Part shown: piece after piece, positions 40,261-64,000 of the stretch | Layout of the letters: each line of letters begins with the position of its first letter | How positions within the stretch are numbered: position 1 is the first letter of the stretch | NCBI RefSeq assembly: GCF_030770395.1 | Contig: NZ_CP132480.1 | Location: 850,821 to 914,820 of the forward strand | Direction: 5' to 3' | DNA length: 64,000 nucleotides | Source of the DNA: Telluria beijingensis | GTDB lineage: Bacteria > Pseudomonadota > Gammaproteobacteria > Burkholderiales > Burkholderiaceae_D | Program-made: the position numbers and the translations under genes | Notes under the pieces: generated by a model | Told to the model about the DNA's origin: nothing | The model's input: the letters and a program-made list of their open reading frames with translations, nothing else | Databases searched by the model: none

Positions 40261-41493
40261 ATGAATGGCGAGACCGGCATGACGGGCAGCGACGGCGAGA
40301 CTCCAGCAAGCGACACCGGCCCGGTCGCCGAGGCCCGGGTACTCATCGATCCCTACCGCGACTGGACCGAGGCCGAGGGCATCCCGATCCACCTGGACTT
40401 CGGCCACGACCTGCTGGCGCTGGAGACCGGACGCTGGGAACGCTACGACGCGCGCGGCTGCTTCGCCCATACGCACGGCGCCGGCGACTTCATGGCCAAC
40501 TACGTGCTCGAAGTCGAGGGCGGCAGGAAGACGCGCCCGGTCAAGCACCTGTACGAAGTGTTTTGCTATGTGCTCAGCGGCCATGGCGCGACCAAGGTCT
40601 GGCTTCCGGGCGGCGAGACCCGGGTATTCGAATGGGGGCCGAAGGCAGTGTTCGCGATCCCGCTCAACTGCCAGTACCAGGTCTTCAACGCCAGCGGCGC
40701 CGAGCCGCTGCGCATTTCGTGCACCAATAACGCGCCGATCACGATCAACCTGTACCACAACATCGATTTCGTGTTCGACAATCCCTTCGCCTTCCCGGAA
40801 CGCACGGGCGCGGCCGGGCATTTCGAGGGGGAGGGCGAGCATACGGCCTACACGCACAAGTCGAACACGATCAAGCGCAATGTGTGGGAAACCAATTTCG
40901 TCCACGACGTGTCGAGCTTCAAGCTCTATGAATTCGAGGAGCGGGGGCCGGGTTCGACCAATGTCAGTTTCATCCTGGCCGACGGCACCATGCATGCCCA
41001 CGTGTCGCAGATCCCGACGGGACGCTACAAGAAGGCACACCGCCACGCGGCCGGCACCCATGTGCACGCGGTCGATGGCGAGGGCTATTCGCTGCTGTGG
41101 TACGAGGGCGATGCGGAGTTTCGTGAAATCCCCTGGAAGCACGGCTTCATGTACACGCCGCCGTTCTGGATGTTCCACCAGCACTTCAATACCTGCGCGC
41201 AGCCGGCGCGCTACCTGGCATGCAGCCTGGGCAGCCGGCGCTATCCCTTCATTTCGCTGCGGCGCAAGAGTTCCGAGGGCGCCGGGTCGATCTCGCTGAC
41301 CCAGGGTGGACGCCAGCTCGAATACGAGGACCAGGATCCGCGCATCCACCGCAAATGGCTCGAAGCCCTGCGCGAACACGGCGTGGCATCGGCCATGGGC
41401 GGCATCTTCGACGAGCCGGCGATCCTCGCCTTGCCGCCCGGGGAATTGAGCGGGCCGGTACGCATGCCCAGGTCGACCGGCCCCGCCGTCTAG
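40261..41493 (+). CDS. Two-domain cupin protein 1
   Basis: A 410-residue bicupin, cytoplasmic. The first cupin spans about residues 80-160 (KHLYEVFCYVLSGHGATKVW ... VFAIPLNCQYQVFN) and lacks the usual HxH metal ligands. The second spans about 235-330 and has them: H260-x-H262-x4-H267 (KKAHRHAAGTHVHAVDGEGY) and H306/H308 in FWMFHQHFN. A joint segment NNIDFVFDNPFAFPER-like links the two. Size and layout recall gentisate-type ring-cleaving dioxygenases, but I cannot assign the reaction. It is the first gene of the regulon, directly behind a TTGACA promoter and an operator, and 12 bases ahead of EutA-like gene 1. It is paralogous to the cupins at 46.4 and 61.3 kb. Confidence 0.8.
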   Translation: MNGETGMTGSDGETPASDTGPVAEARVLIDPYRDWTEAEGIPIHLDFGHDLLALETGRWERYDARGCFAHTHGAGDFMANYVLEVEGGRKTRPVKHLYEVFCYVLSGHGATKVWLPGGETRVFEWGPKAVFAIPLNCQYQVFNASGAEPLRISCTNNAPITINLYHNIDFVFDNPFAFPERTGAAGHFEGEGEHTAYTHKSNTIKRNVWETNFVHDVSSFKLYEFEERGPGSTNVSFILADGTMHAHVSQIPTGRYKKAHRHAAGTHVHAVDGEGYSLLWYEGDAEFREIPWKHGFMYTPPFWMFHQHFNTCAQPARYLACSLGSRRYPFISLRRKSSEGAGSISLTQGGRQLEYEDQDPRIHRKWLEALREHGVASAMGGIFDEPAILALPPGELSGPVRMPRSTGPAV

Positions 41494-41505
41494 CCGGCCA
41501 GCGCG

Positions 41506-43038
41506 ATGCCGCACGATCTCGACCTGGATCACGAACATGAGCATGAGCATGGGCAGGCGGCGATCGCCCGGCTGATCCACGACCAGGACACGGTCGTGCT
41601 GCGCACGGTCGGCATCGACATCGGCAGTTCGACCTCGCACCTACTGTTCGCCCGGGTCACTTCGCAACGCCTGGCCGAAGGCTGGTCGAGCCGTTTCGTG
41701 GTGACCGGGCGCGAGGTGCTGTGGCGCTCGCCGATCGTGCTGACGCCGTTCCTGGCCGACGGCACGATCGACGCGCATGCGCTGGAACATTTCATCGCCC
41801 GGGCCTACCGCGATGCCGGCTTTGCCAGGGACGACATCGACAGCGGCGCCGTGATCCTGACCGGCGAAGCCATCAAGCGCAGGAACGCGCGTGCGATCCA
41901 GGAGATCTTCGCCCGCGAATCGGGCAAATTCGTGTGCGCCACCGCTGGCCACCAGCTGGAAAGCATCCTGGCCGCGCACGGGTCGGGCGCGGCCGCCCTG
42001 TCGCGGCGCAGGGGCGAGTGCGGCCTGCACGTCGATGTCGGCGGCGGCACCACCAAGCTGGCGCTGGTCGGCGGCGGCGAGGTCGTGGGCGTGGCGGCGT
42101 TCGCCGTGGGCGGCCGCCTGCTGGCGCGGGACGCGCACGGCGCCTGGACGCGCTGCGACGACGCGGCGCGGCTCGTGGCCGGACAACTGGGCCTCGACGT
42201 CGCGCCGAGCAACCTGGCGCGTCCCGCGGTGCGGCGCGAGATCGCGCGCCGCATGGCGCAGGTGGTCGGCGACCACCTCTCCGGCGCCGCGCTCGACGGC
42301 CTGGGCCGCGCCCTGGCGCTGACCGCGCCGCTGGCGCGCACCGTGCAGCCGGCCTTCATGACCTTCTCGGGCGGGGTGGCGGAATACCTGTTCGGGCGCG
42401 AGCAGGCCGACCATGGCGACATCGCCGGCCTGCTGGCGCAGGAGATCGCGGCCCAGATCAGGTCGCGCATCGCGCTGCCCCTGGTCGAGCCGATGGAAGG
42501 CATCCGCGCGACCGTGATCGGGGCGTCGCAGTTCACGGTGCAGGTCAGCGGCAAGACCATCTACCTGTCCGATGGCATGCCGTCGTCTCCGCTCCTGCCG
42601 GCCCACAACGTGCCGGTGCTGCACCTCGGCCTGGACCTGGCGGGCCCCATCGATCCCGATCGCGTGGCGGCGGCGCTGCACGAGGGCGCGGCGCGCCTCG
42701 ATCTTGCGCCGGCGGCGCGGCTGGCGATCGCCTTCAGGTGGCAGGACGAACCGGAGCACGCGCGGCTGTTCGCACTGGCCAGCGCGATCGCACGCTTCGC
42801 GGCGCCGGCCGGGCAACGCAGCGAGCCGCTGTTCCTGGCGATCAATGGCGACGTGGCGGCCTCCCTCGGCCGCATGCTGCACGTCGAACTGGGCCTGGAC
42901 TGCGGCCTGGTGTCGGTCGATGGCATCGCCCTGCGCGAGCTGGACTTCATCGACATCGGCGCCGTGCTCGAACCATCTGGCGTGGTGCCGGTGGTGATCA
43001 AGTCGCTGCTGTTCCACGCCGCCACCACGCGCGGCTAG
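41506..43038 (+). CDS. EutA-like ASKHA ATPase 1, His-rich N terminus
   Basis: A 510-residue relative of EutA, the ATP-dependent factor that restores inactivated B12-dependent ethanolamine ammonia-lyase. ASKHA landmarks: phosphate-1 loop VGIDIGSSTSHLLFAR (Asp38), phosphate-2 loop HVDVGGGTTKLALV, and adenosine-side FSGGVAEYLFGRE and GASQFTVQVSG. The first 16 residues (MPHDLDLDHEHEHEHG) are a His/acid metal-binding-type tail that EutA does not have. No EutB/EutC lyase genes are present. It follows cupin gene 1 by 12 bases, which suggests it serves that or another enzyme of this cluster. The name EutA should not be taken as evidence for ethanolamine use. Confidence 0.8.
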   Translation: MPHDLDLDHEHEHEHGQAAIARLIHDQDTVVLRTVGIDIGSSTSHLLFARVTSQRLAEGWSSRFVVTGREVLWRSPIVLTPFLADGTIDAHALEHFIARAYRDAGFARDDIDSGAVILTGEAIKRRNARAIQEIFARESGKFVCATAGHQLESILAAHGSGAAALSRRRGECGLHVDVGGGTTKLALVGGGEVVGVAAFAVGGRLLARDAHGAWTRCDDAARLVAGQLGLDVAPSNLARPAVRREIARRMAQVVGDHLSGAALDGLGRALALTAPLARTVQPAFMTFSGGVAEYLFGREQADHGDIAGLLAQEIAAQIRSRIALPLVEPMEGIRATVIGASQFTVQVSGKTIYLSDGMPSSPLLPAHNVPVLHLGLDLAGPIDPDRVAAALHEGAARLDLAPAARLAIAFRWQDEPEHARLFALASAIARFAAPAGQRSEPLFLAINGDVAASLGRMLHVELGLDCGLVSVDGIALRELDFIDIGAVLEPSGVVPVVIKSLLFHAATTRG

Positions 43039-43047
43039 TCCGCCTCG

Positions 43048-43062: not shown

Positions 43063-43122
43063 CGTCGCCGGGAAGCCGCGTCCAGAACGCCGCTATGGAA
43101 CGGCGTCTTTCATGGAGGGATG

Positions 43123-43219: not shown

Positions 43220-45040
43220 ATGAACAAACCTGTCGAAACAGGCGCATCTCAGGCGCCGATATTAACCATCGGCGACACCCGGCCTCCGCCCGGCGTGGCG
43301 CCAGCCGCGCAGCGCTGGGGCTCTGACGTCATCGTCGACCTGCTGCACCGTTACGGGCTGCCGTATGCCGCGCTGAACCCCGGCGCCAGCTACCGCGGCC
43401 TGCACGATTCGATCGTCAACTACGGCCAGAACTACCCGTACATGATGCTGTGCCAGCACGAGGAAACAGCGGTGCAGATCGCCCATGGCTACGCCAAGGC
43501 GAGCGGGCGGCCGATGGTCGCGATCCTGCACAACCTGGTCGGCCTGCTGCACGCGAACATGGCGGTGTACTACGCCTACATCGACCGCGCGCCGGTGTTC
43601 ATCGTCGGCGCCACCGGCCCGATGGACGAGACAAAGCGCCGCCCGCGCATCGACTGGACCCATACCGCCAACGTGCAGGGCCAGGCGTTGCGCGACTACA
43701 CCAAATGGGATTACCAGCCGACCGTGGTCGACGGCGTGCCGGAATCGTTCGCGCGCGCCTATGGCGTGATGATGACCGAGCCGCGCGGGCCGATCTATAT
43801 GTGCTACGACGCCTGGCTGCAGGAAGCCCCGCTCGAGCACGAGGTGCCGCTGCCGCCGGCCGCCGCCGCGGCCGTGCCGACCCCGATCGCGCCCGACGCG
43901 GCGGCCATGGAGCAGGCGATGGACATGCTGGTGGCGGCCGAGCGCCCGGTGATCATGGCGGAATTCAGCGGCCGCGAGCACGCGGCCTTCGATACGCTGG
44001 TGGAGCTGGCCGAGACGCTCGGCATCGCGGTATTCGACATCAACAGCCGCCTGAACTTCCCCGGTTGCCACCCGCTGAACCTGAGCATGGTCAAGGACGT
44101 GTTCCGCGACGCCGACCTGATCCTGTGCCTCGACGTGCGCGACTGGGAAAAGCCGACCACCGAACTGACCAGCACCACGCGCGAGCTGGTCAGCCTGGTG
44201 CCGGACGGCGCGCGCTGGATCGACATCGGCTTCGGCGACCTGGAGCTGTCCAGCTGGGCCATGGATTACCAGCGCCTCCTGCATGCCGACCTGCGCATCA
44301 TGGGCGACACCACGGTCGCGATCCCGCAGCTGACCGCGCTGGCGCGGCAACGCCTGGCGCGCGATCCGGCGCTGGGCCCGCGGGTGCGCGCGCGCACCGA
44401 ACAGACGGCGGCCCGGCACCGCGCGGCGCGCGCCAAATGGGCGGCGCAGGCGCGCGAACACTGGGACCAGGTGCCGATGACGACGGCGCGCCTGGCGAGC
44501 GAGGTGTGGGACGTCGTCCGCGACGAAGACTGGGTGCTGACCGCGGGCACCCTGAACGACTGGACACGCAAGCTGTGGGACTTCGACCGGCCGCACCGCC
44601 ATCCCGGCAAGTCGCTGGGCACCGCGACCCAGATCGGCATCTCGCTCGGGGTGGCGCTGGCGCACCGCGACGCCGGCCGGCTGGTGGTGGACATCCAGCC
44701 CGACGGCGACCTGATGTTCGACGCCGGCGCGCTGTGGGTCGCGGCCAAGCACCGGATCCCGCTGCTGGTGGTCATGTACAACAACCGCGCCTATTACAAT
44801 GACTGGGAACACCAGATCCGCATGGCGAAACAGCGCGGCACCGCGCTCGAGCGCGCCCACATCGGCATGGACATGGACGATCCGGAGCCCGACTTCGCGG
44901 CCATGGCGCGTTCGATGGGCTGGTATGCCGAGGGGCCGATCGAGCAGGGCGGCGACGTCGCGGCGGCGCTGCGGCGCGCCATCGAGAAGGTCAAGGCCGG
45001 CCAGCCGGCGCTGGTCGACACGATCACCCAGAAACGGTGA
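43220..45040 (+). CDS. Thiamine-diphosphate-dependent enzyme (acetolactate synthase-like)
   Basis: A 606-residue member of the pyruvate decarboxylase/acetolactate synthase superfamily. The N-terminal PYR domain has the catalytic Glu in LCQHEETAVQIAHGYA (Glu81), a middle Rossmann-type domain follows (about 220-360), and the C-terminal PP domain has the Mg/ThDP motif QPDGDLMFDAG (about 493-503) through VMYNNRAYYND. It should decarboxylate or ligate a 2-keto acid; the acceptor cannot be predicted. The helix between the ThDP motif and NN is normal. A strong ribosome site (GAGGAGGAGA) precedes the ATG. It is grouped with EutA-like gene 1 and solute-binding gene 1 and lies behind two operator sites. 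Confidence 0.88.
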   Translation: MNKPVETGASQAPILTIGDTRPPPGVAPAAQRWGSDVIVDLLHRYGLPYAALNPGASYRGLHDSIVNYGQNYPYMMLCQHEETAVQIAHGYAKASGRPMVAILHNLVGLLHANMAVYYAYIDRAPVFIVGATGPMDETKRRPRIDWTHTANVQGQALRDYTKWDYQPTVVDGVPESFARAYGVMMTEPRGPIYMCYDAWLQEAPLEHEVPLPPAAAAAVPTPIAPDAAAMEQAMDMLVAAERPVIMAEFSGREHAAFDTLVELAETLGIAVFDINSRLNFPGCHPLNLSMVKDVFRDADLILCLDVRDWEKPTTELTSTTRELVSLVPDGARWIDIGFGDLELSSWAMDYQRLLHADLRIMGDTTVAIPQLTALARQRLARDPALGPRVRARTEQTAARHRAARAKWAAQAREHWDQVPMTTARLASEVWDVVRDEDWVLTAGTLNDWTRKLWDFDRPHRHPGKSLGTATQIGISLGVALAHRDAGRLVVDIQPDGDLMFDAGALWVAAKHRIPLLVVMYNNRAYYNDWEHQIRMAKQRGTALERAHIGMDMDDPEPDFAAMARSMGWYAEGPIEQGGDVAAALRRAIEKVKAGQPALVDTITQKR

Positions 45041-45126: not shown

Positions 45127-46224
45127 ATGAAGACACATGCAAGAAAGGCTGCCGGCACATTGGCGACATTGGGAATGGCGTTGTTGTTCGGGCTGCCGTG
45201 CGCGGCCCAGGCGCAAGGCACGGCCCAGGACAAGGGCAAGCACCACGCGCTGTTTACCTACCAGGGCCCGGACCGCGAACAGCGGCTGCTCGAGGGGGCT
45301 CGCAAAGAGGGCGCGATCGTGGTGTATACCTCGCTGAACCTGAAGGACTCGGTGCCGATCACCGATGCGTTCGAGAAGAAGTACGGACTCAAGGTCTCGC
45401 TGTGGCGGGCCGGCAGCGAGAAGGTGCTGCACCGGACCGTCACCGAAGCGCGCGCCGGGCGCTTCTCGCCCGACGTGATCGAGACCAACGGTCCCGAGAT
45501 GGAGGCGATGTACCGCGAGAAGCTGCTGTCCGAATTCTACAGCCCGGCCTTCAAGGACATCCCGGCGGTGGCCTTCCCGCCGCACCGCCATTACGTGGCC
45601 GACCGCTTCAATTTCTTCGTCCTCGGCTACAACACCAACCTGGTCAAGCCGGAGGACGTTCCCAAGTCATACCAGGACCTGCTGCATCCGCGCTGGCAGG
45701 GCAAGATCGGCATCGAATCGGGCGACAGCGACTGGTTCGCGGCCGTGACCAAGTCGATGGGCGAGAAGGAGGGGCTGGAGTACTTTCGCAAGCTGGCCGC
45801 GACCCAGCCGCAGATGCGCACCGGCCACACCCTGATGGCCGAACTGCTGGCGGCCGGCGAACTGCCGCTCGCGGCCACGGTGTACAACCACAATATCGAG
45901 CGCCTGACCCAGAAGGGCGCCCCGGTCCGGTGGATTCCGCTGGGCCCGACCTTCGGCCGCCCGAACGCGATCGGCGTCGCGCGCCATGCGCCGCACCCAC
46001 ACGGCGCGCTGCTATTCACCGACTTCATGCTGTCGCGCGAGGGGCAGGACCTGATCAAGCAGCGCAACCGCGTCCCGGCCAGCACCGCCGTCGAGACGAA
46101 TCTCAACAAGTTCGCCTACAAGATGATCGATCCGGTGATCGTGCTCGACGAATCGCAGAAATGGGAACGGCTGTGGGCCCAGCTGTTCCACAAGGGCCAG
46201 GCGCCGAAAAAAGCCGACGACTGA
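45127..46224 (+). CDS. Periplasmic solute-binding protein 1 (FbpA-like)
   Basis: A 365-residue exported binding protein of the ferric-iron/small-organic type (PBP type 2). The signal peptide ends at AAQAQG near residue 32. The mature part starts with the family phrase GPDREQRLLEGARKEGAIVVYTSLNLKD, and has DVIETNGPEMEAMYREKLL, GYNTNLVKPEDVPKSYQDLL and GARHAPHPHGALLFTDFMLSREGQ-like sections. It shares the opening and overall plan with two other binding proteins in the window, while only one permease and one ATPase are present. It lies 87 bases after the ThDP gene and is closed by a terminator hairpin. Confidence 0.88.
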   Translation: MKTHARKAAGTLATLGMALLFGLPCAAQAQGTAQDKGKHHALFTYQGPDREQRLLEGARKEGAIVVYTSLNLKDSVPITDAFEKKYGLKVSLWRAGSEKVLHRTVTEARAGRFSPDVIETNGPEMEAMYREKLLSEFYSPAFKDIPAVAFPPHRHYVADRFNFFVLGYNTNLVKPEDVPKSYQDLLHPRWQGKIGIESGDSDWFAAVTKSMGEKEGLEYFRKLAATQPQMRTGHTLMAELLAAGELPLAATVYNHNIERLTQKGAPVRWIPLGPTFGRPNAIGVARHAPHPHGALLFTDFMLSREGQDLIKQRNRVPASTAVETNLNKFAYKMIDPVIVLDESQKWERLWAQLFHKGQAPKKADD

Positions 46225-46229
46225 CCACG

Positions 46230-46423: not shown

Positions 46424-47626
46424 ATGCCGCACGATAAAGACCGGACCCACTGGCACGAACCCGCCGCCAACAAAAAGGCCGGCTTCGGCGAATTCAAGAA
46501 GCAGCCGACGCCCTACGACGCCTATATGGAACAGGAAGGCATTCCCGTGTTCCGCGATATCGGCATCAGCAATGTGCGCAACCTGCCGCTGGTGCCCTGG
46601 GCGCGGCGCGGCGGCCGCGGCCACTTCATCCAGCTGTACGGCACCGAAGGCAAATGGGGCTGCTACGTGATCGAGGTGCCGCCGGCCGGCGCCCTGAACG
46701 TCGAAAAGCATATGTATGAAGAGATCTTCCTGGTCATCGAAGGCCGCGGCACCACCGAGGTCTGGCAGGAAGGCGACACCCGCAAGCACGTGTTCGAGTG
46801 GCAGGCCGGCTCGCTGTTCTCGATCCCGATGAACGCGATGTACCGGATCGTCAACGCCACCTCCAGTGGCGCGCTGCTTTTGGCGGGCAATACGGCGCCG
46901 AACGTGATCAATATGATCAACAACTTCGACGCGGTGTTCAACAATCCCTTCATCTTTCACGACCGCTTCAGCAGCGCCGACGACTTCTACAAGGCGCGCG
47001 ACGAGATCGAGCCGGATCCGGTGCGCGGCCTGGCGATGCGCCGCACCAACCTGATCCCGGATGCGGCCAATTGCGAGCTGCCGCTGGACAACCGGCGCTC
47101 GCCCGGCTACCGCCGGGTCGAGCCCTTCATGACCAATAACTGCTTCTACTTCTGGATCGGCCAGCACGAGAACGGCCGCTATTCGAAGGCGCACGCGCAC
47201 ACCTCGGCCGCGATCCTGATCTGCCTGAAGGGCAAGGGCTATACCTATACCTGGCCCGAGCGCCTCGGCGTGAATCCGTGGCGCGACGGCTTCGGCGACC
47301 AGGTGCGGCGCCTCGACTACGAGCCGGGCGGCATGGTCACGGCGGCGCCGGGCGGCGCGCGCTGGTACCACCAGCACTTCAGCGTGTCCGAGGAGCCGTT
47401 CCGCCTGACCGCCTGGTTCGGGCCGCACAATCCCGGCCGCGATCCCGGCCCACCGGGCGAGAAGCACACCGACTACACGGCGATCGACGTCAACGAGGGC
47501 GGCACCGCCATCCCGTACTGGATGGAAGACCCGTTCGTGCGCCAGGAGTACGAGGCCAAGCTGCGGCAGAACGGCGTCGCCAACCGCATGGACCCGGCCT
47601 GGTACCTGCCACCCGGCGTCAAGTAA
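46424..47626 (+). CDS. Two-domain cupin protein 2
   Basis: A 400-residue bicupin paralogous to cupins 1 and 3. First cupin: KHMYEEIFLVIEGRGTTEVW ... AGSLFSIPMNAMYRIVN, again without HxH ligands; linker NNFDAVFNNPFIFHDRF. Second cupin: KAHAHTSAAILICLKGKGYTYTW with H257 and H259 but no third His where cupins 1 and 3 have one, then WYHQHFS. The N terminus is polar, with MPHDKDRTHWHEPAANKK. The altered ligand set means it may have a different metal site or a non-catalytic role. It heads the second sub-operon, behind a TTGACT promoter and two tandem operators, and precedes EutA-like gene 2. Confidence 0.8.
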   Translation: MPHDKDRTHWHEPAANKKAGFGEFKKQPTPYDAYMEQEGIPVFRDIGISNVRNLPLVPWARRGGRGHFIQLYGTEGKWGCYVIEVPPAGALNVEKHMYEEIFLVIEGRGTTEVWQEGDTRKHVFEWQAGSLFSIPMNAMYRIVNATSSGALLLAGNTAPNVINMINNFDAVFNNPFIFHDRFSSADDFYKARDEIEPDPVRGLAMRRTNLIPDAANCELPLDNRRSPGYRRVEPFMTNNCFYFWIGQHENGRYSKAHAHTSAAILICLKGKGYTYTWPERLGVNPWRDGFGDQVRRLDYEPGGMVTAAPGGARWYHQHFSVSEEPFRLTAWFGPHNPGRDPGPPGEKHTDYTAIDVNEGGTAIPYWMEDPFVRQEYEAKLRQNGVANRMDPAWYLPPGVK

Positions 47627-47683: not shown

Positions 47684-49243
47684 ATGAGCAGCAGCAGCAG
47701 TAGCAGTACCGGCAGCGGCGGCGAGGAAGGCGGCCGCATTTTCTTCAGCAACGTCAGGCGCAGCCTCGAGGAAGAAGACGAGATCCGCCTGGTGAGCGTG
47801 GGCGTGGACATCGGTTCGTCGACCTCGCACCTTGTGTTTTCGCGCATGGTGCTGGAACGGCTCGACAACCGCTACATCGTGTCCGAGCGCGAGGTGCTGC
47901 ACGAATCCGAGGTGCTGCTCACGCCCTATCTCGACGACCACTCGATCGACGCCGCCGCCCTCGGCGCCTTCATCGCGCGCCAGTACCGGTTGGCCGGCGT
48001 CGATCCGCAGGGGATCGATACCGGGGCCCTGATCCTGACCGGGGTCGCGGTGCGGCGCAGCAATGCGCGCGCGATCGCCGACCTGTTCGCGGCGCAGGCC
48101 GGCAAGTTCGTGTCGGTCAGCGCCGGCGACGCGCTCGAGACCACGCTGGCCGCCTTCGGCTCCGGCGCCGCGGCGCGCTCGATCCGCGAGAATGCGCGCG
48201 TGATGAATATCGACATCGGCGGCGGCACGTCCAAGATTGCGGTCTGCGAACATGGCGAACTGGCCGGCATGACGGCGGCCGACGTCGGCGCGCGCATCGT
48301 GTCGTTCGACGCCGACGGCCGGGTGCGGCGGATCGAAGAAGCGGGCCGCCGCTTCGCGGCCGAAGCCGGCCTGGCGCTGGAGATCGGCGTCAGGCCCGAT
48401 CCGGCCCTGCTGGCGCGCATGGTGGAACGCATGGCCGACCGGCTGTTCGGCATCGTGTGCAACCGCGACCCGGACGGCGCCAGCGCCGCGCTGCTGCGGA
48501 TCGACCCGCTGCCGCCCGGCCGCGCGCCCGACGTGGTCACCTTCTCGGGCGGCGTGTCCGAATATATCTACGGCCTCCAGCCAGAGGCCTACGGCGACCT
48601 CGGTCCCCAGCTGGCGCGCGCCATCCTCGAGCGGGTCAGGGCCTGGGGCCCGCGCATCGAACGCCCCGAGCAGGGCATCCGCGCGACCGTGGTCGGCGCC
48701 TCGCAGTACACGATCCAGGTGAGCGGCGCCACCATCTATGTCGAGCCGCACGAACTGCTGCCGCTCAAGAACACCCAGGTGATCGTGCCGCGGCTGGCGC
48801 TCGGCGACGAGGTCCTCGACAGCGAGGCGATCGCGGCCGCGGTGCGCGCCGCGCTGCGCCGCTTCGACCTGCTGCAGGGCGAGCATCCGGTCGCCCTGTG
48901 CTATCGCTGGCAAGAGTCGGCGACTTTCGCGCGCATGGATGCGTTCTGCCGCGGCGTGGCGGCTGGCATGGCGACCCTGCTCGAGCGCGGCCTGCCGCTG
49001 GTGCTGGTCGGCGAGGGCGATATCGGGGGCCTGATCGGCATCCACTGCAAGCAGGAGCTCGGCCTGGGCAACCCGGTGGTGTCGATCGACGGCATCACAC
49101 TGAAGGAATTCGATTTCATCGACATCGGCGCGCTGCTCGATACCTCGGGCGCGGTGCCGGTGGTGATCAAGTCGCTGGTATTTCCCACCAGCGCCGCGCT
49201 GGGAAGGCCGGTCGACACGGCCATGGAAGCGGTGGCCGCATGA
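47684..49243 (+). CDS. EutA-like ASKHA ATPase 2, poly-serine N terminus
   Basis: A 519-residue paralogue of the EutA-like protein encoded at 41.5 kb. ASKHA loops: VGVDIGSSTSHLVFSRM (Asp42), NIDIGGGTSKIAVCEHGE, FSGGVSEYIYGLQPEAYG and VVGASQYTIQVSGA. Instead of a histidine tail it begins MSSSSSSSTGSGGEEGG, encoded by an AGC-rich run that could slip in length. The last part, DFIDIGALLDTSGAVPVVIKSLVF, is shared nearly word for word with paralogue 1. It sits 57 bases after cupin gene 2, and its stop overlaps the start of the iminopeptidase gene (ATGA). The client enzyme is unknown. Confidence 0.8.
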   Translation: MSSSSSSSTGSGGEEGGRIFFSNVRRSLEEEDEIRLVSVGVDIGSSTSHLVFSRMVLERLDNRYIVSEREVLHESEVLLTPYLDDHSIDAAALGAFIARQYRLAGVDPQGIDTGALILTGVAVRRSNARAIADLFAAQAGKFVSVSAGDALETTLAAFGSGAAARSIRENARVMNIDIGGGTSKIAVCEHGELAGMTAADVGARIVSFDADGRVRRIEEAGRRFAAEAGLALEIGVRPDPALLARMVERMADRLFGIVCNRDPDGASAALLRIDPLPPGRAPDVVTFSGGVSEYIYGLQPEAYGDLGPQLARAILERVRAWGPRIERPEQGIRATVVGASQYTIQVSGATIYVEPHELLPLKNTQVIVPRLALGDEVLDSEAIAAAVRAALRRFDLLQGEHPVALCYRWQESATFARMDAFCRGVAAGMATLLERGLPLVLVGEGDIGGLIGIHCKQELGLGNPVVSIDGITLKEFDFIDIGALLDTSGAVPVVIKSLVFPTSAALGRPVDTAMEAVAA

Positions 49244-51510: not shown

Positions 51511-51531
51511 GCGGGACGATATTTCTGCCGT

Positions 51532-51552
51532 GCAGTGCCGGGCTCGCACTGC
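51532..51552 (+). terminator. Hairpin after solute-binding gene 2
   Basis: Stem GCAGTGC / GCACTGC with a 7-base loop, followed by GCCTTTCG, 22 bases after the stop codon. Only a weak T stretch follows, so efficiency is uncertain. Confidence 0.5.
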
Positions 51553-51664
51553 GCCTTTCGTGGTAGAGGCTGCGTTTCAGGCTTCACCGGGCCGGTTTCT
51601 TGGTATGCTTCCGGCTCTCTCAACCGCGCTGTGGAAACACATCGCACCACCGAAAGGAAGAAAC

Positions 51665-56500: not shown

Positions 56501-56586
56501 CGACGAAGTTTGAAACGGAAAGCAAGGCGGGGCACTCCAAAAATTCAGAAATGCCGGCAATGGCATTCAATATAGGAGACGTGGTT

Positions 56587-58329
56587 ATGGAAGCAGTACG
56601 GACGCTATCGGCCGAGTATGTAGACAAACCTTCGCTGTGGCGGCGCATCGACATGAAGTGGCTGGTGATCGGCATCTGCGTGCTTGGGGTGTCCTACCTC
56701 GCGCTGATGCCGCTTTTCTTCCTGCTCTGGCAAAGCTTCTTCACGCCCGAGACTGCAACCCAGCCGGCCACCTTCACGCTCGGTAACTACCTCAGCGCCT
56801 ACACCAGCCCGGAGACCTTGCGCCTGCTGCTCAACTCGGTCACCTTCGCGGCCGGCACCTCGGTCCTGGCCTTCATCACCGGCACCGCCCTGGCCTGGAT
56901 GAACGAGCGCACCAACACCCCGTTCAAGTCGCTGTTCTTCGCGCTCTCGATCATCCCGCTGATCATCCCCGGCATCCTGTTCACGGTCGCATGGATCCTG
57001 CTGGGCAGCCCGAAGATCGGCATCATCAACCTCCTGATCCAGAACTGGTTCAACACCGACTACGTGCTGTTCGACGTGTACTCGATGTGGGGCATGATCT
57101 GGGTCGAGGGCCTGCACTACTCGCCGATGGCCTTCCTGATCATGACCGCCGCCTTCCGCTCGATGGACCCGTCGCTGGAAGAATCGGCGATGATGAGCGG
57201 CGCCAGCATCCGCCAGATCGCCTGGCGCATCACGCTCAAGCTGACCTGGCCGGCGATCTTCGCGACCTTCCTGATCCTGTTCATCCGCGCGATCGAGTCG
57301 TTCGAAGTGCCGGCGCTGCTCGGCCTGCCGGTCGGGATCCAGGTGTTCACCTCGTCGATCTACCAGGCCATCCACCAGTATCCGAGCCAGGTCGGCCTGG
57401 CCTCGTCCTACGCCGTGACCCTGCTCCTGATCACCACCGTCGGCATCTACTTCCAGTCCAAGCTGTCCAGCCAGGGCAGCAAGTATTCGACCGTGACCGG
57501 CAAGGGCTTCCGCCCGCGCACCATGGACCTGGGCAAATGGCGCTACCTGACCGCCGCCATCTTCATCGTCTACTTCGCGCTGATCGTGGTGCTGCCGTTC
57601 CTGGTGCTGGTGTGGTCCTCGCTGCAGAAGTTCTATTCGGTGCCCTCGATGGAAGCGGTGCAGAACCTGTCCCTCGACGCCTACCGCTTCATGCTCGACT
57701 ATCCGACGCTGGCCTCGTCGACCTGGAACAGCCTGGTGCTGGCCCTGGGCAGCGCCACCGTCATCATGTTGCTGACCTCGGTGATCTGCTGGATCGTGGT
57801 CAAGACCAAGCTGCCCGGCCGCTGGCTGCTGGACAACCTGGCCTCGCTGCCGATGGTGTTCCCGGGCCTGGTACTGGGCCTGGCGATCATGGTGTTCTAC
57901 CTGAACGTCGACATCGGCATCTACGGCACCATGTGGATCCTGTTCATCGCCTACGTGACCCGCTTCCTGCCGTACGGCCTGCGCTACAACACCACCTCGA
58001 TGCTGCAGATCCACAAGGAGCTCGAGGAATCGGCGGCGATGAGCGGCGCGTCCTGGGGCACCACCTTCTGGCGTATCGTGCTGCCGCTGCTCAAGCCGGG
58101 CCTGATGGCCGGCTGGATCTACATCGTGATCGTCTCGATCCGCGAACTGTCGTCGTCGATCCTGCTGTACAGCCCGGGCACTGAGGTAATCTCGATCCTG
58201 ATCTGGGAACTGTGGGAGAACGGGCAATACGTCGAACTGTCGGCGCTCGGCGTGATGTTCATCATGATGCTGTTCGTGCTGGTCATGCTCGCCCAACTGC
58301 TGGGCAAGAAATTCGGCGTCAAGGAATAA
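56587..58329 (+). CDS. ABC transporter permease, fused FbpB type
   Basis: A 580-residue inner-membrane permease with two homologous halves, each with about six helices and an EAA loop for the ATPase: SLEESAMMSGASIRQIAWRITL near residue 197 and ELEESAAMSGASWGTTFWRIVLPLLKPG near residue 478. One polypeptide therefore replaces the usual dimer, as in FbpB and AEP/ferric permeases. The start at 56587 follows a good ribosome site; 12 codons upstream are open but not needed. With the ATPase it would import the ligand brought by one or all of the three binding proteins. It is behind promoter and operator E. Confidence 0.92.
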   Translation: MEAVRTLSAEYVDKPSLWRRIDMKWLVIGICVLGVSYLALMPLFFLLWQSFFTPETATQPATFTLGNYLSAYTSPETLRLLLNSVTFAAGTSVLAFITGTALAWMNERTNTPFKSLFFALSIIPLIIPGILFTVAWILLGSPKIGIINLLIQNWFNTDYVLFDVYSMWGMIWVEGLHYSPMAFLIMTAAFRSMDPSLEESAMMSGASIRQIAWRITLKLTWPAIFATFLILFIRAIESFEVPALLGLPVGIQVFTSSIYQAIHQYPSQVGLASSYAVTLLLITTVGIYFQSKLSSQGSKYSTVTGKGFRPRTMDLGKWRYLTAAIFIVYFALIVVLPFLVLVWSSLQKFYSVPSMEAVQNLSLDAYRFMLDYPTLASSTWNSLVLALGSATVIMLLTSVICWIVVKTKLPGRWLLDNLASLPMVFPGLVLGLAIMVFYLNVDIGIYGTMWILFIAYVTRFLPYGLRYNTTSMLQIHKELEESAAMSGASWGTTFWRIVLPLLKPGLMAGWIYIVIVSIRELSSSILLYSPGTEVISILIWELWENGQYVELSALGVMFIMMLFVLVMLAQLLGKKFGVKE

Positions 58330-58416: not shown

Positions 58417-59541
58417 ATGCTTAGCGTTAAGAATCTTTGTACCGAGTATCCAAACGAGAAGGGCCAGGTGGTCAAGGCGGCCCAGGACGTCAGCTTCGAC
58501 GTCCCCACCGGCAAGCTGTTCACCTTGCTCGGACCCAGCGGCTGCGGCAAGACCACGACCCTGCGCTCGATCGCCGGCCTGGAGCGGCCCAAGTCGGGCG
58601 AGATCACGGTGGATGGAATCGCGGTCTACTCGTCGGGCAAGTCGGTCTTCATCCAGCCGAACCGCCGCAATTTCGGCATGGTGTTCCAGTCGTACGCGAT
58701 CTGGCCGCACATGAACGTGTTCCAGAACGTGGCCTTCCCGCTCGATGTCTCGAGCCGCAAATACAGCAAGCAGGAAATCGAGACCAAGGTGATGCGCGTG
58801 CTGACCGCGGTGGGCCTCGACCAGTATGCCGACCGCGAAGCGACCAAGATGTCCGGCGGCCAGCAGCAGCGCCTGGCGCTGGCGCGGGCGCTGGTCATGG
58901 AACCGAAGCTGCTGCTGCTGGACGAGCCGCTGTCGAACCTCGACGCCAAGCTCCGCGAGCGCATGCGGTTCGAACTCAAGCGCATGCAGCGCGAGCTGGG
59001 CCTGACCACCATCTACGTGACCCACGACCAGAGCGAGGCGCTGGCCCTGTCGCACGAGATCGCCGTCATGAGCGCCGGCCGGATCGTCCAGTGCGGCTCG
59101 CCGCGCGCGATCTACGAGCGGCCGCGCAACAAGTTCGTCGCCGACTTCGTCGGCATCACCAACTTTCTCGACGCCACCATCCAGGCGCCCGAGGGCACGG
59201 TGCGCGAGCGCTTCCGCGTCCAGTCGTCGATCGGCAACCTGTGCGTGACCTCGTCCGAGGACTTCCGCGCCGGCGATACGGCCCTGATCTCGGTGCGTCC
59301 GGAAGACGTCGACCTGAGCGCCACGCGCCCGGATGGCGAGAACGTCACCGAAGGCGTGGTCGACACCAAGGTCTTCCTTGGCGAATACATGGATTACCAG
59401 GTCCGGGTGGCCGACCGCATCGTGCTGGCGCGCGTCCACCCGTCGTTCAATGTGTCGACGGGATCGACGGTGTACCTCTCGATGAATCCGGAAAAATGCA
59501 TCTGCATTCCGGACGACGAGCAGTACCGACAAGCCGCCTGA
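58417..59541 (+). CDS. ABC transporter ATPase, FbpC/PotA type
   Basis: A 374-residue ATPase energising the permease. Walker A is GPSGCGKT (39-46), the signature MSGGQQQRLALARAL (about 145-159), Walker B LLLLDEPLSNLDAKLRERM (Asp169), and the switch His in YVTHDQSEALAL. The last 130 residues form the TOBE/regulatory domain typical of this group (LISVRPEDVDLS). The gene lies 87 bases after the permease. The product works at the cytoplasmic face of the inner membrane. Confidence 0.94.
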   Translation: MLSVKNLCTEYPNEKGQVVKAAQDVSFDVPTGKLFTLLGPSGCGKTTTLRSIAGLERPKSGEITVDGIAVYSSGKSVFIQPNRRNFGMVFQSYAIWPHMNVFQNVAFPLDVSSRKYSKQEIETKVMRVLTAVGLDQYADREATKMSGGQQQRLALARALVMEPKLLLLDEPLSNLDAKLRERMRFELKRMQRELGLTTIYVTHDQSEALALSHEIAVMSAGRIVQCGSPRAIYERPRNKFVADFVGITNFLDATIQAPEGTVRERFRVQSSIGNLCVTSSEDFRAGDTALISVRPEDVDLSATRPDGENVTEGVVDTKVFLGEYMDYQVRVADRIVLARVHPSFNVSTGSTVYLSMNPEKCICIPDDEQYRQAA

Positions 59542-59728: not shown

Positions 59729-60538
59729 ATGCAAACGATTGGATTGATCGGCGCCGGGCGGATGGGTTTGCCGATCGTCGGCCACCTGGCGCGCGCCGGC
59801 TACCGGGTGCTGGTCAGCGAACGCGACCAGGCGCGCGTCCCGGACATCGCCGCACGCGGCGGCGAGGTGGTCGACCAGCAGCTGCTGGGCGCCGGGTCCG
59901 AGGCCATCCTGGTGTGCGTCGGCTACGACCGCGAAGTGCGCGAACTGCTGCAGGCGCCCGGCGCGCTGCTGGCGGCGGCGCGGCCGGGCACGATCGTCGC
60001 GGTGCTGAGCACGATCCATCCGAAGACCATGCAGGAGCTGGCGGCGCACGCCGCCGCGCAGGGCGTGCACGTGGTCGATTCGACCGTCTGCCGCGGCGGA
60101 CGGGCGGCCGACGAGGGCACGTTGCTGTCCTTCGTCGGCGGCGACGCCGAGGTGGTCGAGCGCCTGACCCCGGTGCTGCGCGCCTACTCGTCCGACGTGG
60201 TGCACAGCGGCGGCGTGGGCACGGCCCAGGTCTCGAAGGCGGTCAACAACCTGATCCTGTGGGCCTGCCTGGTCGCCAGCCACGAAGGCCTGGCGCTGGC
60301 GCAGCGCTACCAGGTCGACGTGGAAGCGCTGCGCGCGGCCCTGATGACCAGCAGCGCGACCAACGGCGCGCTCGGCAACTGGGGCGGCCAGTCGATGGCC
60401 TGGGCCGAGGACGACATGGAGATCGTGGCCGCGATGGCCGCCGACTGCGGCATCGCGCTGCCGCAATCGGGGCTGGTGCGCGAAGTCTGCCGCGGCCTCA
60501 AGCCGCGCCGCTACCAGCTCGAGAAATACGGCACCTGA
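59729..60538 (+). CDS. Beta-hydroxyacid dehydrogenase-like NAD-binding protein
   Basis: A 269-residue enzyme of the 3-hydroxyisobutyrate/tartronate-semialdehyde reductase family. The Rossmann loop is IGLIGAGRMGLPIVGHLARAGYRV (GxGxMG form), the substrate block VVDSTVCRGGRAADEGTL (family G-G-x-x-x-A-x-x-G), and the catalytic Lys lies in VSKAVNNLILWA. It would reduce or oxidise a small hydroxy acid produced by the aldolase-like or ThDP enzymes. It is 187 bases after the ATPase gene, in the same direction; that gap contains a hairpin-like segment but no gene I can support. Confidence 0.88.
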   Translation: MQTIGLIGAGRMGLPIVGHLARAGYRVLVSERDQARVPDIAARGGEVVDQQLLGAGSEAILVCVGYDREVRELLQAPGALLAAARPGTIVAVLSTIHPKTMQELAAHAAAQGVHVVDSTVCRGGRAADEGTLLSFVGGDAEVVERLTPVLRAYSSDVVHSGGVGTAQVSKAVNNLILWACLVASHEGLALAQRYQVDVEALRAALMTSSATNGALGNWGGQSMAWAEDDMEIVAAMAADCGIALPQSGLVREVCRGLKPRRYQLEKYGT

Positions 60539-60612: not shown

Positions 60613-61185
60613 ATGAGCAAGGAGAACAAGCTTTACCACAGCAACAAGGAGCGCGTGTTCGTGCGCGCCATCGCCGGCCCGTACAACCTGCAGGACGAGC
60701 TGCTGCGGCTGCGCGCCATGCCGCGCGTGCGCAAGGCCAGCGCGATCCCGTTCGTCGACGGGCCGCAGGCCTTCAGCCGCCACTACGTGGAGCCGAAGGA
60801 CGGCATCACGCAGAACTTCCACCTGCACCTGGAAGAGTACGGCCCGGGCGGCAAGTCGCAGAAGCACGGCCACGTCAACGAGGCGGCCTTCTACATCCTC
60901 GACGGCGTCGGCTACGAGGTGCACGACGGGATCCGCTACGACTGGCAGGCGGGCGACGTCGCCATTGTTCACAACAACTGCGTGCACCAGCACTTCAACG
61001 CCTCGTCGGACAAGCCGGCGCGCGCCCTCGTGCTCAAGACCAAGCCGATGTACATGTTCATGAACATGCTGTTCCAGAAGCAGGTCGAGGCGCGCGAGAC
61101 CACCGCCGCGCCGGGCGGGGAGGGCTTCCAGGTGCGCGAGGAAGAAGACGACTACAACTACGGCGACTACGGCGACGCCCGCTGA
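60613..61185 (+). CDS. Single-domain cupin protein
   Basis: A 190-residue cupin, shorter than its three bicupin neighbours. Its cupin core has QKHGHVNEAAFYILDGVGYEVHDG (H-x-H-x-x-E form of motif 1) and VHNNCVHQHFNASS (motif 2), so a complete metal site is likely. The tail is acidic and tyrosine-rich (EEEDDYNYGDYGD). Such stand-alone cupins are dioxygenases, isomerases or sensors; the reaction is not predictable. It is 75 bases after the dehydrogenase and is followed by a hairpin before cupin gene 3. Confidence 0.82.
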   Translation: MSKENKLYHSNKERVFVRAIAGPYNLQDELLRLRAMPRVRKASAIPFVDGPQAFSRHYVEPKDGITQNFHLHLEEYGPGGKSQKHGHVNEAAFYILDGVGYEVHDGIRYDWQAGDVAIVHNNCVHQHFNASSDKPARALVLKTKPMYMFMNMLFQKQVEARETTAAPGGEGFQVREEEDDYNYGDYGDAR

Positions 61186-61224
61186 CACGGACACCGACAA
61201 GGTGAAGCAGACGGCCCAGGCCGG

Positions 61225-61253
61225 GCCGGCGAGCGCCGGCTGAACGATTTTTT
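61225..61253 (+). terminator. Probable terminator or attenuator before cupin gene 3
   Basis: Stem GCCGGC / GCCGGC with loop GAGC, then seven mixed bases and a run of six T. The spacer between stem and T run is longer than ideal, so partial read-through is likely. Confidence 0.45.
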
Positions 61254-61287
61254 GTCAAACACGTTTTTTTAAGAGCTGGAGATACAG

Positions 61288-62406
61288 ATGTCCAAGAACG
61301 CAATGGTTTCAGATGAACTCGCAAAGAAATTCGCCACCGAAAAAGAATCGCCCTACACCCGTTGGGTCGCCGCCGAAGGGCTGGACATCATCAGCGCGCA
61401 TTACGTGCCGAGCCTGAACACCGTCGACCTCAAGCCATGGGACCGCCGTGGCGGCAAGGGCGTATTCATCAACCACGAGGCCTCGCGCACCTCGAACGAC
61501 TGCTATGTGTGCGAGATCCCGCCCGGCAAGCAGCTCGAGCCGCAACGCCAGCTGTTCGAGGAAATGATCTATGTGCTGACCGGGCACGGCTCGACCACGG
61601 TGTGGAACGACGCCGGCCAGCGCGTCACCTTCGAATGGCAGGCCGGCTCGCTGTTCGCGATCCCGCTCAACGCGACCTGCCAGCACTTCAACGGCTCGGG
61701 CCGCGACGCGGCGCGCTTCGTCGCCGTGACCAACGGACCGTCGGTCATCAACCTGTACGAGGACATCGATTTCGTCTTCAACACCAAATACGACTTCAAG
61801 AACCGCTTCTCGGGCGAGCCGGATTATTTCGACAACAAGGGCGAACAGAAAGGCCTGCTGCTGGAGACGAACTTCGTCGCCGACGCGGTGAACCTGCCCC
61901 TGATCAGCGCCAAGGAGCGCGGCGCCGGCGGTGGCCACATCCGCTTCAATATGGCCAAGGGCTCGATGAACAGCCATATCTCGCAATTCCCGGTGGGGAC
62001 CTACAAGAAGGCGCACTGCCACGGTCCGGGCGCGCACGTGATCATCCTGTCCGGCGAGGGCTACAGCCTGATGTGGCCGGAGGGCGAGGAGCCGCGCCGC
62101 TACGAGTGGGAAACCGGCTCGATGATCGTGCCGCCCAACCTGTGGTTCCACCAGCATTTCAATACCGGCAACGCGCCGGCGCGCTACCTCGCCTTCAAGC
62201 ACGAGGTGGTCTCGATCCGCAATGCCCAGGGCGTGCCGAAGGCGTGGATCAGCCAGCGCGTCGGCGGCGACCAGATCGACTATGCCGACGAGTCGCCGAT
62301 CGTACGCAACCTGTTCGCCGAAGCCCTGGCAAAGAACGGACTGGAGCCTCGCATGAGCGATGCCTACCAGGCCGAACTGGCGGACCTGCCGCCCAAGGCC
62401 GCCTGA
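61288..62406 (+). CDS. Two-domain cupin protein 3
   Basis: A 372-residue bicupin, paralogue of cupins 1 and 2. First cupin: PQRQLFEEMIYVLTGHGSTTVW ... AGSLFAIPLNATCQHFN, without HxH. Linker: NLYEDIDFVFNTKYDFKNRF. Second cupin: YKKAHCHGPGAHVIILSGEGYSLMW with H243, H245 and H250, then LWFHQHFNTGNAPARYL with H288/H290. The set H-x-H-x4-H plus FHQHFN is shared with cupin 1, so these two probably bind metal in the same way. A ribosome site (GAGCTGGAGA) precedes the ATG. It lies after the small cupin and before the porin. Confidence 0.82.
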   Translation: MSKNAMVSDELAKKFATEKESPYTRWVAAEGLDIISAHYVPSLNTVDLKPWDRRGGKGVFINHEASRTSNDCYVCEIPPGKQLEPQRQLFEEMIYVLTGHGSTTVWNDAGQRVTFEWQAGSLFAIPLNATCQHFNGSGRDAARFVAVTNGPSVINLYEDIDFVFNTKYDFKNRFSGEPDYFDNKGEQKGLLLETNFVADAVNLPLISAKERGAGGGHIRFNMAKGSMNSHISQFPVGTYKKAHCHGPGAHVIILSGEGYSLMWPEGEEPRRYEWETGSMIVPPNLWFHQHFNTGNAPARYLAFKHEVVSIRNAQGVPKAWISQRVGGDQIDYADESPIVRNLFAEALAKNGLEPRMSDAYQAELADLPPKAA

Positions 62407-62486
62407 TTTCGTAGCACACACCACGCGCCCGTCGATGTGCCGGCACAGGCACACGGGCCGGGCGTGACAACCTGGAGGAGACAAAC

Positions 62487-63722
62487 ATGAGAGCACTGAA
62501 CAGAACGTCGATCGCGGTGGCAGCCATCTTCGCATGCGCCATGCCGGTCCTTGCGCACGCCCAGTCGGACATCACCATCTATGGCAAGCTGTACCCGCAG
62601 ATCAATAACGGGAAGGCCTACGGCGCTACCCCGGTCGGCGCCAGCGGCAATAGCCTGGTCGGCCCGGTCACGGCGGAAGTCGACAACGTCGACGGCACCG
62701 TCATGGAGTCGAGCAATTCGCGCCTGGGCTTTCGCGGCACGGAAAAGCTGGGCGGCAGCCTGAAGGCGATCTGGCAGATCGAGATGGGCGTCGGCGTCGA
62801 CAACGGCATCGGCGGCGACGGCACCCGCCTGTTCAGCCGCGACACCTTCGTCGGGCTCTCGGGCGACGCCGGCACGATCAAGATCGGCCGCATGGACACC
62901 GTCTACAAGAGCATCGGCGACGCGCTCAGCTTCCTCGGCATCTCGAGCGGCAACTTCGTCTCCACCAGCAATGTGCTGTCCAAGCCCGGCATGGGCGGCA
63001 GCGGCTCCAGCTTCCACCTGCGGCGCGACAACGTGGTGCAGTACACCTCGCCGGAGAAGAGCGGCTTCCAGGGCATGGTCGAATACTCGCTGGGCGAACT
63101 GTCGAGCAGTGGCCGCAACAATTCGCTGTTCGGGATAGGCGTCACCTACGAGGGCGGCCCGTTCTATTTCGCGCTGGCGCATGAACGGCACTACGACTTC
63201 TTCGGCGGTTCGCGCAACGTGGCGCGTTCGCTGTCGAATTACGACCGCACGGCGGGCCAGGGCCTGGCGGGCACCAGGTCGACCGATACCGGCACCCGCC
63301 TGACCGCCCAGTACGCGCTGACCAAGAACACCAAGGTCGAAGCGAACATCGCACGTCTCGAGTTCGACGAAAAGGGCGGCGCCGCCGGCTTTTTCGAGAA
63401 CTATCGCACCGATACCTGGGGCATCAATGCCCAGCACAAGATCGGCGCCTTCACCCTGCAGGCCTCGTACGCGAGCGGCGACGACGGCGACTGCAAGCTG
63501 GTCGGCGGGGGCGGCTGCAATACCGTGGGCCTGGGCGGCAAGCAGCTCAACCTCGGCGCCGCCTACTCGTTCTCGAAGCGGACCATGCTCTACCTGATCG
63601 GCAGCAAGCTCGAAAACGACGAGTTTTCCAACCGCTCCAACCTGGGTGACCTGAACGATGGCGCCGCCGGCCGCGGGCAGCAGATCCGCCAGGTCGCGCT
63701 GGGCCTGAGCCACACCTTCTGA
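62487..63722 (+). CDS. Outer-membrane porin, Omp32/GBP type
   Basis: A 411-residue trimeric-porin-family protein. The signal peptide ends in LAHAQS (about residue 27). The mature start DITIYGKLYPQIN is the first beta strand, SNSRLGFRGTEKLGGSLKAIWQIE is the family block, and the chain ends in QVALGLSHTF with the terminal Phe needed for outer-membrane assembly. It should let the cluster substrate, probably an anion or small aromatic acid, cross the outer membrane. The strong ribosome site (CTGGAGGAG) fits a highly expressed protein. It lies between cupin gene 3 and the third binding-protein gene. Confidence 0.92.
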   Translation: MRALNRTSIAVAAIFACAMPVLAHAQSDITIYGKLYPQINNGKAYGATPVGASGNSLVGPVTAEVDNVDGTVMESSNSRLGFRGTEKLGGSLKAIWQIEMGVGVDNGIGGDGTRLFSRDTFVGLSGDAGTIKIGRMDTVYKSIGDALSFLGISSGNFVSTSNVLSKPGMGGSGSSFHLRRDNVVQYTSPEKSGFQGMVEYSLGELSSSGRNNSLFGIGVTYEGGPFYFALAHERHYDFFGGSRNVARSLSNYDRTAGQGLAGTRSTDTGTRLTAQYALTKNTKVEANIARLEFDEKGGAAGFFENYRTDTWGINAQHKIGAFTLQASYASGDDGDCKLVGGGGCNTVGLGGKQLNLGAAYSFSKRTMLYLIGSKLENDEFSNRSNLGDLNDGAAGRGQQIRQVALGLSHTF

Positions 63723-63765
63723 CACCGCCATCCCGTCACTTCCATCATTCAAGGAGAGATTCACG

Positions 63766-64000
63766 ATGAAGAAAATCCCACGCCGCTCTGCACTCAGGAA
63801 CGCGCTCAGGCTCGCGCTGGGCGCCCTGGCCGCCGGCACGCTGTTCGGCGCCACGGCGCCGGCCGCGCTGGCCCAGAACAAGGTGGCCGACATCGCCAAC
63901 TACAGCGGCGCCGATCGCGAGAAACGCCTGGTCGACGGCGCCCGCAAGGAAGGCCCGCTGATGATCTACACCTCGGCGCCGATCGACGACATGACGACCC
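63766..64000 (+). CDS. Periplasmic solute-binding protein 3 (FbpA-like), N-terminal part
   Basis: The first 78 codons of a gene that runs past the right edge. The signal peptide (RLALGALAAGTLFGATAPAALAQ) is followed by SGADREKRLVDGARKEGPLMIYTSAPIDD, the same opening as binding proteins 1 and 2. It is the third copy of this component. The ribosome site is AAGGAGAG. The cluster evidently continues to the right. Confidence 0.88.
   Translation, partial: MKKIPRRSALRNALRLALGALAAGTLFGATAPAALAQNKVADIANYSGADREKRLVDGARKEGPLMIYTSAPIDDMTT

Follow-up and report, generated by a model that had tools for sequence, protein, structure and literature searches.

The window studied here is a stretch of 64,000 nucleotides from Telluria beijingensis, bases 850821-914820 of contig NZ_CP132480.1, which is the single contig of a 6.02 Mb genome (G000). 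From window position 40261 onward the genes of the block lie on the plus strand (Table 1). The block opens with a bicupin gene (cup1), a gene for an EutA-family ATPase (eutA1), a thiamine diphosphate (ThDP)-dependent enzyme and a solute-binding protein (SBP1), followed by cup2, eutA2, a prolyl-aminopeptidase-like hydrolase, SBP2 and an IclR regulator. The second part comprises a reductase, eutA3, a class II aldolase, an ATP-binding cassette (ABC) permease and ATPase, a dehydrogenase resembling 3-hydroxyisobutyrate dehydrogenase (HIBDH), the small cupin gene cupS1, cup3, a porin and SBP3. An earlier note on this DNA had listed three bicupins and three EutA-like ATPases besides one each of the permease, ABC ATPase, ThDP enzyme, class II aldolase, reductase, dehydrogenase and regulator, and all of these were recovered. 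The hydrolase, the small cupin and the porin had been overlooked; of the three binding proteins counted, two are complete in the window, the third runs off its end and a fourth lies outside. We found that the bicupins and EutA-like proteins form matched classes and that nickel genes lie near EutA far above chance, which suggests that the EutA-like proteins may supply the cupins with metal.

All three EutA proteins match PF06277 over their full length (357.6, 377.7 and 392.2 bits against a cut-off of 27) and retain the glycine-rich nucleotide-site motifs. Identity is 43% for EutA1 with either EutA2 or EutA3, and 41% between EutA2 and EutA3. The AlphaFold model of EutA2 (pLDDT 85.5) predicts an ASKHA-type fold; Pfam matched EutA and other ASKHA families in the EutA proteins and did not find the cobW/HypB/UreG (P-loop G3E GTPase) domain. 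EutA is known for its B12 enzyme. A search of the T. beijingensis genome for EutB (PF06751) gave no match, and EutB was missing from 28 of the 32 cluster genomes checked, this one included; in the remaining four it is located away from the cluster. When scanned against NCBIfam, EutA1 and EutA3 reached at best 280.2 and 318.1 bits against the EutA equivalog cut-off of 598. On our reading, EutA1-3 belong to the EutA sequence family and not to the EutA functional family, and would act in the manner of a nickel metallochaperone or of a reactivase that renews a cofactor. Homologues of EutA3 are named 'ethanolamine ammonia-lyase reactivating factor' in databases. Several cup3 homologues also bear the public name 'ethanolamine ammonia lyase-activating protein' or similar (P0149, P0156, P0163, P0169, P0170), perhaps by transfer from the neighbouring EutA.

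Trees built from open reading frames (ORFs) drawn from the loci, 54 for EutA and 44 for bicupins, revealed three deep classes in both families, with clade values of 98/95 for eutA3 (30 rows), 100/100 for eutA1, cup1 and cup2, and 92/90 for cup3; the placement of the long rows L028, L115 and L104 is unsure. In the 16-member EutA2 clade 15 loci have both flanks visible (L007 begins at a contig edge), and in 14 of them eutA2 has a cup2-class gene no more than 0.2 kb away. Thirteen of these cup2 genes were seen as ORFs, and the one in L113, at 0.2 kb, was missed by the ORF filter and detected by tblastn; in the exception, L012, the distance is 2.9 kb. Genes of the cup1 class adjoin EutA1-class genes and their sisters in 6/6 cases (window, L105, L106, L108, L116, L117). 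For eutA3, cup3 was located within 0.8 kb in L011, where a HupE gene stands between, and in L025, L098, L099, L100 and L102, and at distances of up to about 10 kb in further loci (5.8 kb in the window). In L010, L012, L016, L017 and L019 the bicupin nearest to eutA3 is a cup2 on the opposite strand. Class-matched pairs occur across Proteobacteria, Acidobacteriota and Actinomycetota, where many of the genomes are metagenome bins. The phylogenies read as matched cupin and EutA classes. The earlier note had suggested testing whether the paralogue sets co-diverge; a mirrored branching at the deepest level is not claimed, because a three-class tree without outgroup cannot show it. Recent tandem duplication was rejected, since the paralogues are only 31-43% identical (cup1 shares 31% with cup2 and 38% with cup3) and separate into deep tree classes. 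In a Phyllobacterium locus (L116 6195-13497) a ThDP enzyme, a dehydrogenase, a cup1-type cupin and EutA1 form one run, followed by a LysR gene and a YjbE putative metal transporter.

Two of the three EutA classes carry histidine-rich extensions outside the core. EutA3 proteins of the loci have at least 6 His in up to 60 residues before the core in 30/30 cases, and at least 10 His (range 10-33) in the C-terminal tail in 27 of 30, the exceptions being L025 (2 His), L075 (6) and L104 (0). In the EutA1 class 3-6 His precede the core. Among 120 EutA3 relatives listed, 112 could be parsed, of which 111 have an N-terminal extension with at least 4 His and 111 a C-terminal tail with at least 8 His; in the 8 unparsed ones the start motif is a Met variant, and the same N-terminus is visible. 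Among eight further EutA proteins, with EutB and EutC annotated alongside in at least three, the counts are 0-2 His in front and 0-3 in the last 40 residues (one of the nine loci taken for this comparison gave no parse). Some ORF starts behind these counts are uncertain, and part of the loci came from a search with patterns that included His stretches and is biased accordingly; L075 was found by the PF06277 profile, and the loci of the order and family searches by whole-protein alignment instead of His patterns. A small protein with a His-rich C-terminus but no Pfam match is encoded at L100 15704-16153, directly after a NicO-like permease and an aldolase, and also in L098 and L102.

The link to nickel could not be seen from the window's sequence alone, on which the earlier note was based. 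Of the 32 genomes, 10 have a NicO- or HupE-family gene no further than 7 kb from EutA, where 0.26 would be expected under random placement (P about 2e-14); collapsing close kin to 7 without adjusting the expectation gives a P of about 4e-9. This count rests on 52 NicO/HupE genes, with fragments merged by hand; genome sizes were rounded, and no account was taken of contig ends. The nickel permeases of L006, L008, L011, L014, L027 and L098 have confirmed Pfam matches. Several permease types take this place: NicO stands inside the cluster in L006, L014, L022 and L023, the last three also containing NikR and CobW, and HupE/UreJ in L008, L011, L027 and L098; L100, L102 and L105 have a NicO-like permease that carries a His-rich loop, and the Phyllobacterium cluster contains an annotated HoxN/HupN/NixA transporter together with NikR. 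Nickel genes were also nearby in both plasmid records examined, out of four with a cluster-type EutA. Class II aldolase genes served as a control (150 listed of 174 matches, 20 genomes): a nickel permease was present within 8 kb in 5 of the 11 aldolases near EutA versus 1 of the 139 elsewhere (P 5e-6). The 11 include L021, which has no nickel gene, and in 8 of the 20 genomes the EutA positions were taken from loci that extend at most 10 kb to either side, some of them less. NixA/NicO genes of nine further genomes were found beside neither EutA nor bicupins nor other firm cluster genes. In two Limnohabitans relatives (L120, L121) NicO, NikR and CobW accompany genes for a dehydrogenase, a Rieske protein and a ferredoxin on a different contig from that of EutA, and in a third (L122) they stand with a dehydrogenase gene at a contig edge.

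In T. beijingensis itself the single NikR match is located 28 kb beyond the end of the window, following a CbiM-type importer with an ECF-type ATPase (L118 12978-13433; NCBIfam NF002815, 189.6 bits against a cut-off of 83). The TonB receptor, a DUF4198 protein, CbiM, the ECF-type ATPase and NikR form one run (L118 7679-13433), which resembles a set for nickel uptake that includes a receptor in the outer membrane.

We consider it an even call that the block belongs to an aerobic aromatic-acid pathway in which metal cupins, probably nickel cupins, each have an EutA-like ATPase of their own to load or renew the metal. The block would be the first part of a catabolic island of about 50 kb, nickel genes included, for a carboxylated aromatic acid. 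Such a compound would enter through the porin and an ABC importer served by several binding proteins, and would be hydroxylated by a Rieske oxygenase encoded just past the window together with the BenC-like reductase; enzymes of aldolase and amidohydrolase type would decarboxylate it, the cupins may act on the product by cleavage or decarboxylation, and the route would end with RraA, ThDP and dehydrogenase steps. The island Rieske protein (L005 8858-10171) matches the isophthalate dioxygenase IPDO of Comamonas testosteroni KF1 (PDB 9INA, E 6e-151), and because of this match, the decarboxylase-like proteins and the RraA protein the substrate is probably a carboxylated aromatic acid; small hydroxy or oxo acids are further candidates on account of the ThDP/HIBDH pair and the oxalate-decarboxylase-like fold. 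The gene content agrees with the catabolic cluster postulated earlier. Three parallel uptake variants, as also postulated, do not follow, since only one permease gene was seen for the solute-binding proteins.

In the proposed mechanism each EutA-like protein would be the dedicated ATPase of one bicupin class, placing a divalent metal, Ni2+ being the most likely, in the cupin or exchanging lost or damaged metal at the expense of ATP, with the metal possibly held on the His-rich extensions of EutA3 and EutA1. The 'maintenance ATPase' of the earlier note was a guess to which the nickel genes and His-rich tails give a specific form, metal loading or renewal, though the function is still inferred. 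More tentatively, and at somewhat below even confidence, we suggest that the EutA fold was recruited outside B12 chemistry, yielding a family of factors, driven by ATP, that insert nickel or renew the metal, with one class for each class of cupin. To our knowledge cupins are usually thought to acquire their metal unaided. If the proposal is true, cupin metalloenzymes would have, for the first time as far as we know, a maturation machinery dedicated to them, and the ASKHA type its first metal chaperone, in a nickel-dependent aerobic aromatic-acid pathway. If the pairing reflects metal loading, the metallochaperones would gain a new fold and the aerobic breakdown of aromatics a step that needs nickel, and the database names of cup3 and EutA3 homologues would need correcting. 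The matched classes allow a direct swap test. No description of an EutA-cupin-nickel system was found in the literature, papers on EutA plus cupin being judged by title and abstract opening.

Several observations weigh against metal loading with nickel. Gene linkage is not function, and the case is made from genes and sequences. The EutA2 class lacks a His extension (0-1 His in front), and no bicupin was seen near eutA3 in the sequence examined at L007, L013, L015, L018, L020, L104 and L109. A nickel permease was not seen within 7 kb of EutA in 22 of the 32 genomes, so that constant presence of NicO or HupE was rejected, and two of the ten linked permeases score under the Pfam cut-off (G441, G430). 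Searches for NicO and HupE gave no match anywhere in the T. beijingensis genome. This genome also contains a gene resembling the NiFe hydrogenase large subunit, with CGIC and CISC motifs (C1:2534.1-2535.5 kb; L125 6064-7491). The NikR/CbiM set may serve this hydrogenase, and because the gene is present the nickel supply need not be for the cupins alone; the reading that the importer can serve nothing but the cupins was rejected. The NicO and CbiM families can also move cobalt.

It is possible, although we consider it unlikely, that the EutA-like proteins activate chemistry instead of metal, ATP driving or phosphorylating a substrate step together with the cupin while the nickel genes serve another need. 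In this they would resemble other ASKHA activators (the 2-hydroxyacyl-CoA dehydratase activator, the benzoyl-CoA reductase ATPase). Such a role would leave unexplained the His extensions of EutA3 and EutA1 as well as the occurrence of nickel permeases among the cluster genes at a rate far above chance. Distinctly unlikely is the same device loaded with cobalt, manganese or iron. Carriage of Co2+ by NicO and CbiM would be compatible with it, as would the YjbE-family gene near the Phyllobacterium cup1/EutA1 pair, and in fold comparisons the manganese cupins oxalate decarboxylase and MncA score nearly as high as gentisate/salicylate dioxygenase. However, the regulator beside four clusters and in the importer set of T. 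beijingensis is NikR, a nickel-responsive regulator according to the available part of PMC7055735.

We give a shade less credence again to the nickel genes being passengers collected for hydrogenase, urease or metal resistance, with the EutA tails incidental. The NiFe hydrogenase gene would suit this, urease alpha scored over the cut-off in 17 of 24 genomes, and chromate-transporter-like genes occur nearby, named by sequence reading near the T. beijingensis nickel set and annotated as such in Phyllobacterium. Yet the genes are importers and NikR, not exporters, at least three permease types occur among cluster genes in different lineages, the aldolase control gave only the one permease away from EutA, and a search of the T. 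beijingensis genome for urease alpha found none. That the EutA-like proteins are reactivases of the B12 enzyme ethanolamine ammonia-lyase, as databases name them, is scarcely credible in spite of the strong PF06277 scores, because EutB is lacking and EutA1 and EutA3 stay far below the NCBIfam cut-off.

Compared with known systems, the cluster EutA proteins resemble the EutA reactivating factor in family, nucleotide-site motifs and the ASKHA-type model of EutA2, but differ by having a cupin partner in a genome (T. beijingensis) without EutB, by the His-rich extensions of two classes and, for EutA1 and EutA3, by their low NCBIfam scores. With nickel metallochaperones of the HypB/UreE/CobW type they share a nucleotide-binding protein joined to a His stretch and the linkage to NikR and nickel permeases; unlike these they are ASKHA-type, not G3E GTPases, and the client would be a cupin. 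A His stretch marks chaperone activity in nickel metallochaperones, as stated in the portion of PMC2770081 available, and EutA3 has such a stretch outside its core.

The bicupins share the bicupin fold with gentisate/salicylate 1,2-dioxygenases at about 12% identity, and two cluster cupins reach 22 and 26 bits against 650 for NCBIfam 5-aminosalicylate dioxygenase. In the dioxygenases the catalytic His triad sits in the N-terminal cupin domain; the bicupins have four invariant histidines (H243, H245, H288, H290), all in the second half, and none in the first half. The nickel quercetinase QueD needs a 3His/1Glu or 4His site, and no EutA-like partner appears in its description in the accessible part of PMC4416304. 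The cluster cupins have the cupin fold in common with QueD, and their invariant-His set is a possible ligand pattern, although the substrate would be another. In the available text of PMC12445078 the iph cluster, compared here for the isophthalate dioxygenase, has oxygenase, reductase, transporter and dehydrogenase, and neither EutA nor a nickel gene is mentioned.

The earlier note had suggested searching genomes for bicupins together with EutA-like proteins in the absence of eutBC, and had named rare co-occurrence, or recent tandem copies without conserved partners, as outcomes that would speak against its interpretation. The EutA-like proteins proved to be tied to cupins, and neither outcome was encountered, with the caveat that full-length EutA of this kind is rare: PF06277 exceeded 350 bits in 3 of 250 genomes of the order, with three copies in T. 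beijingensis, two in G143 and one in G180. A further three genomes have one copy each at 152-221 bits, and the sole other genome of the same genus among the 250 has none of this EutA kind. Weak matches of about 29 bits in most of the 250 genomes were left uncounted as FtsA-like (short match, frame often near 420 amino acids). With EutA3 as query (E 1e-60), matches came from 7 of 397 genomes in the order to which the L010 genome belongs and from 5 of 299 in the Limnohabitans genome's family; one of these five (G732) is not of the cluster type by tree. The island is patchy, as expected of an accessory catabolic cluster, yet spans phyla.

Table 1. Genes of the block in the window, with their best matches
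Feature	Position in window	Strand	Matches and remarks
cup1, bicupin class 1	40261..41493	+	Cupin_2 weak, 23.7 bits, under cut-off 27.2; class-1 clade 100/100
eutA1, EutA-family ATPase	41506..43038	+	PF06277 357.6 bits; N-terminal extension with 6 His
ThDP-dependent enzyme	43220..45040	+	nearest PRK08327, 269 bits, under its cut-off of 456
Solute-binding protein 1	45127..46224	+	nearest NCBIfam models PhnS types, far under cut-off
cup2, bicupin class 2	46424..47626	+	Cupin_2/Cupin_1; eutA2 61 bases downstream
eutA2, EutA-family ATPase	47684..49243	+	PF06277 377.7 bits; no His tail; AlphaFold model
Prolyl-aminopeptidase-like alpha/beta hydrolase	49240..50256 (start approximate)	+	TIGR01249 379.9 bits, cut-off 259.75
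Solute-binding protein 2	50431..51510	+	
IclR-family regulator	51530..52525	+	PF01614, PF09339
2Fe-2S/FAD/NAD oxygenase reductase, BenC-like	52601..53611	+	172 bits against cut-off 430
eutA3, EutA-family ATPase	53672..55486	+	PF06277 392.2 bits; His-rich N-terminus, C-terminal tail with 22 His
Class II aldolase/decarboxylase-like protein	55483..56187	+	PF00596; sole match found in the 6 Mb genome
ABC permease	56551..58329	+	nearest PhnU2, 167 bits against cut-off 593
ABC ATPase	58417..59541	+	
HIBDH/tartronate-semialdehyde-reductase-like dehydrogenase	59729..60538	+	
cupS1, small cupin	60613..61185	+	nearest PDB sequence gentisate 1,2-dioxygenase, E 6e-7
cup3, bicupin class 3	61288..62406	+	
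Porin	62487..63722	+	PF13609
Solute-binding protein 3 (start only)	63766..64000	+	complete copy at L005 2586-3668

Cluster-related genes extend at least 15 kb past the window, up to a His-rich CobW protein at about 929.8 kb of the contig. They comprise two further small cupins (2 and 3), SBP4, MFS and DMT transporters, the Rieske oxygenase and a dihydroxyphthalate-decarboxylase-like protein, and then a PanB-like protein, a hydrolase, an amidohydrolase, an RraA-type protein and a Zn-dehydrogenase. SBP4, the MFS and DMT transporters, the small cupins, the hydrolase, the Zn-dehydrogenase and the dihydroxyphthalate-decarboxylase-like protein were named by reading their sequences, and a Pfam scan of the last gave no match. 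The nickel-uptake set follows CobW and ends at 943.4 kb of the contig; it contains transporters, the TonB receptor, the DUF4198 protein, CbiM, an unassigned membrane protein in the place of CbiQ, the ECF-type ATPase and NikR. Past NikR lie genes resembling 2Fe-2S and large subunits of the xanthine-dehydrogenase type, again named by sequence reading (L118 14255-14821 onward), and similar subunit genes occur near cup2/eutA2 in three relatives (L111, L113, L114).

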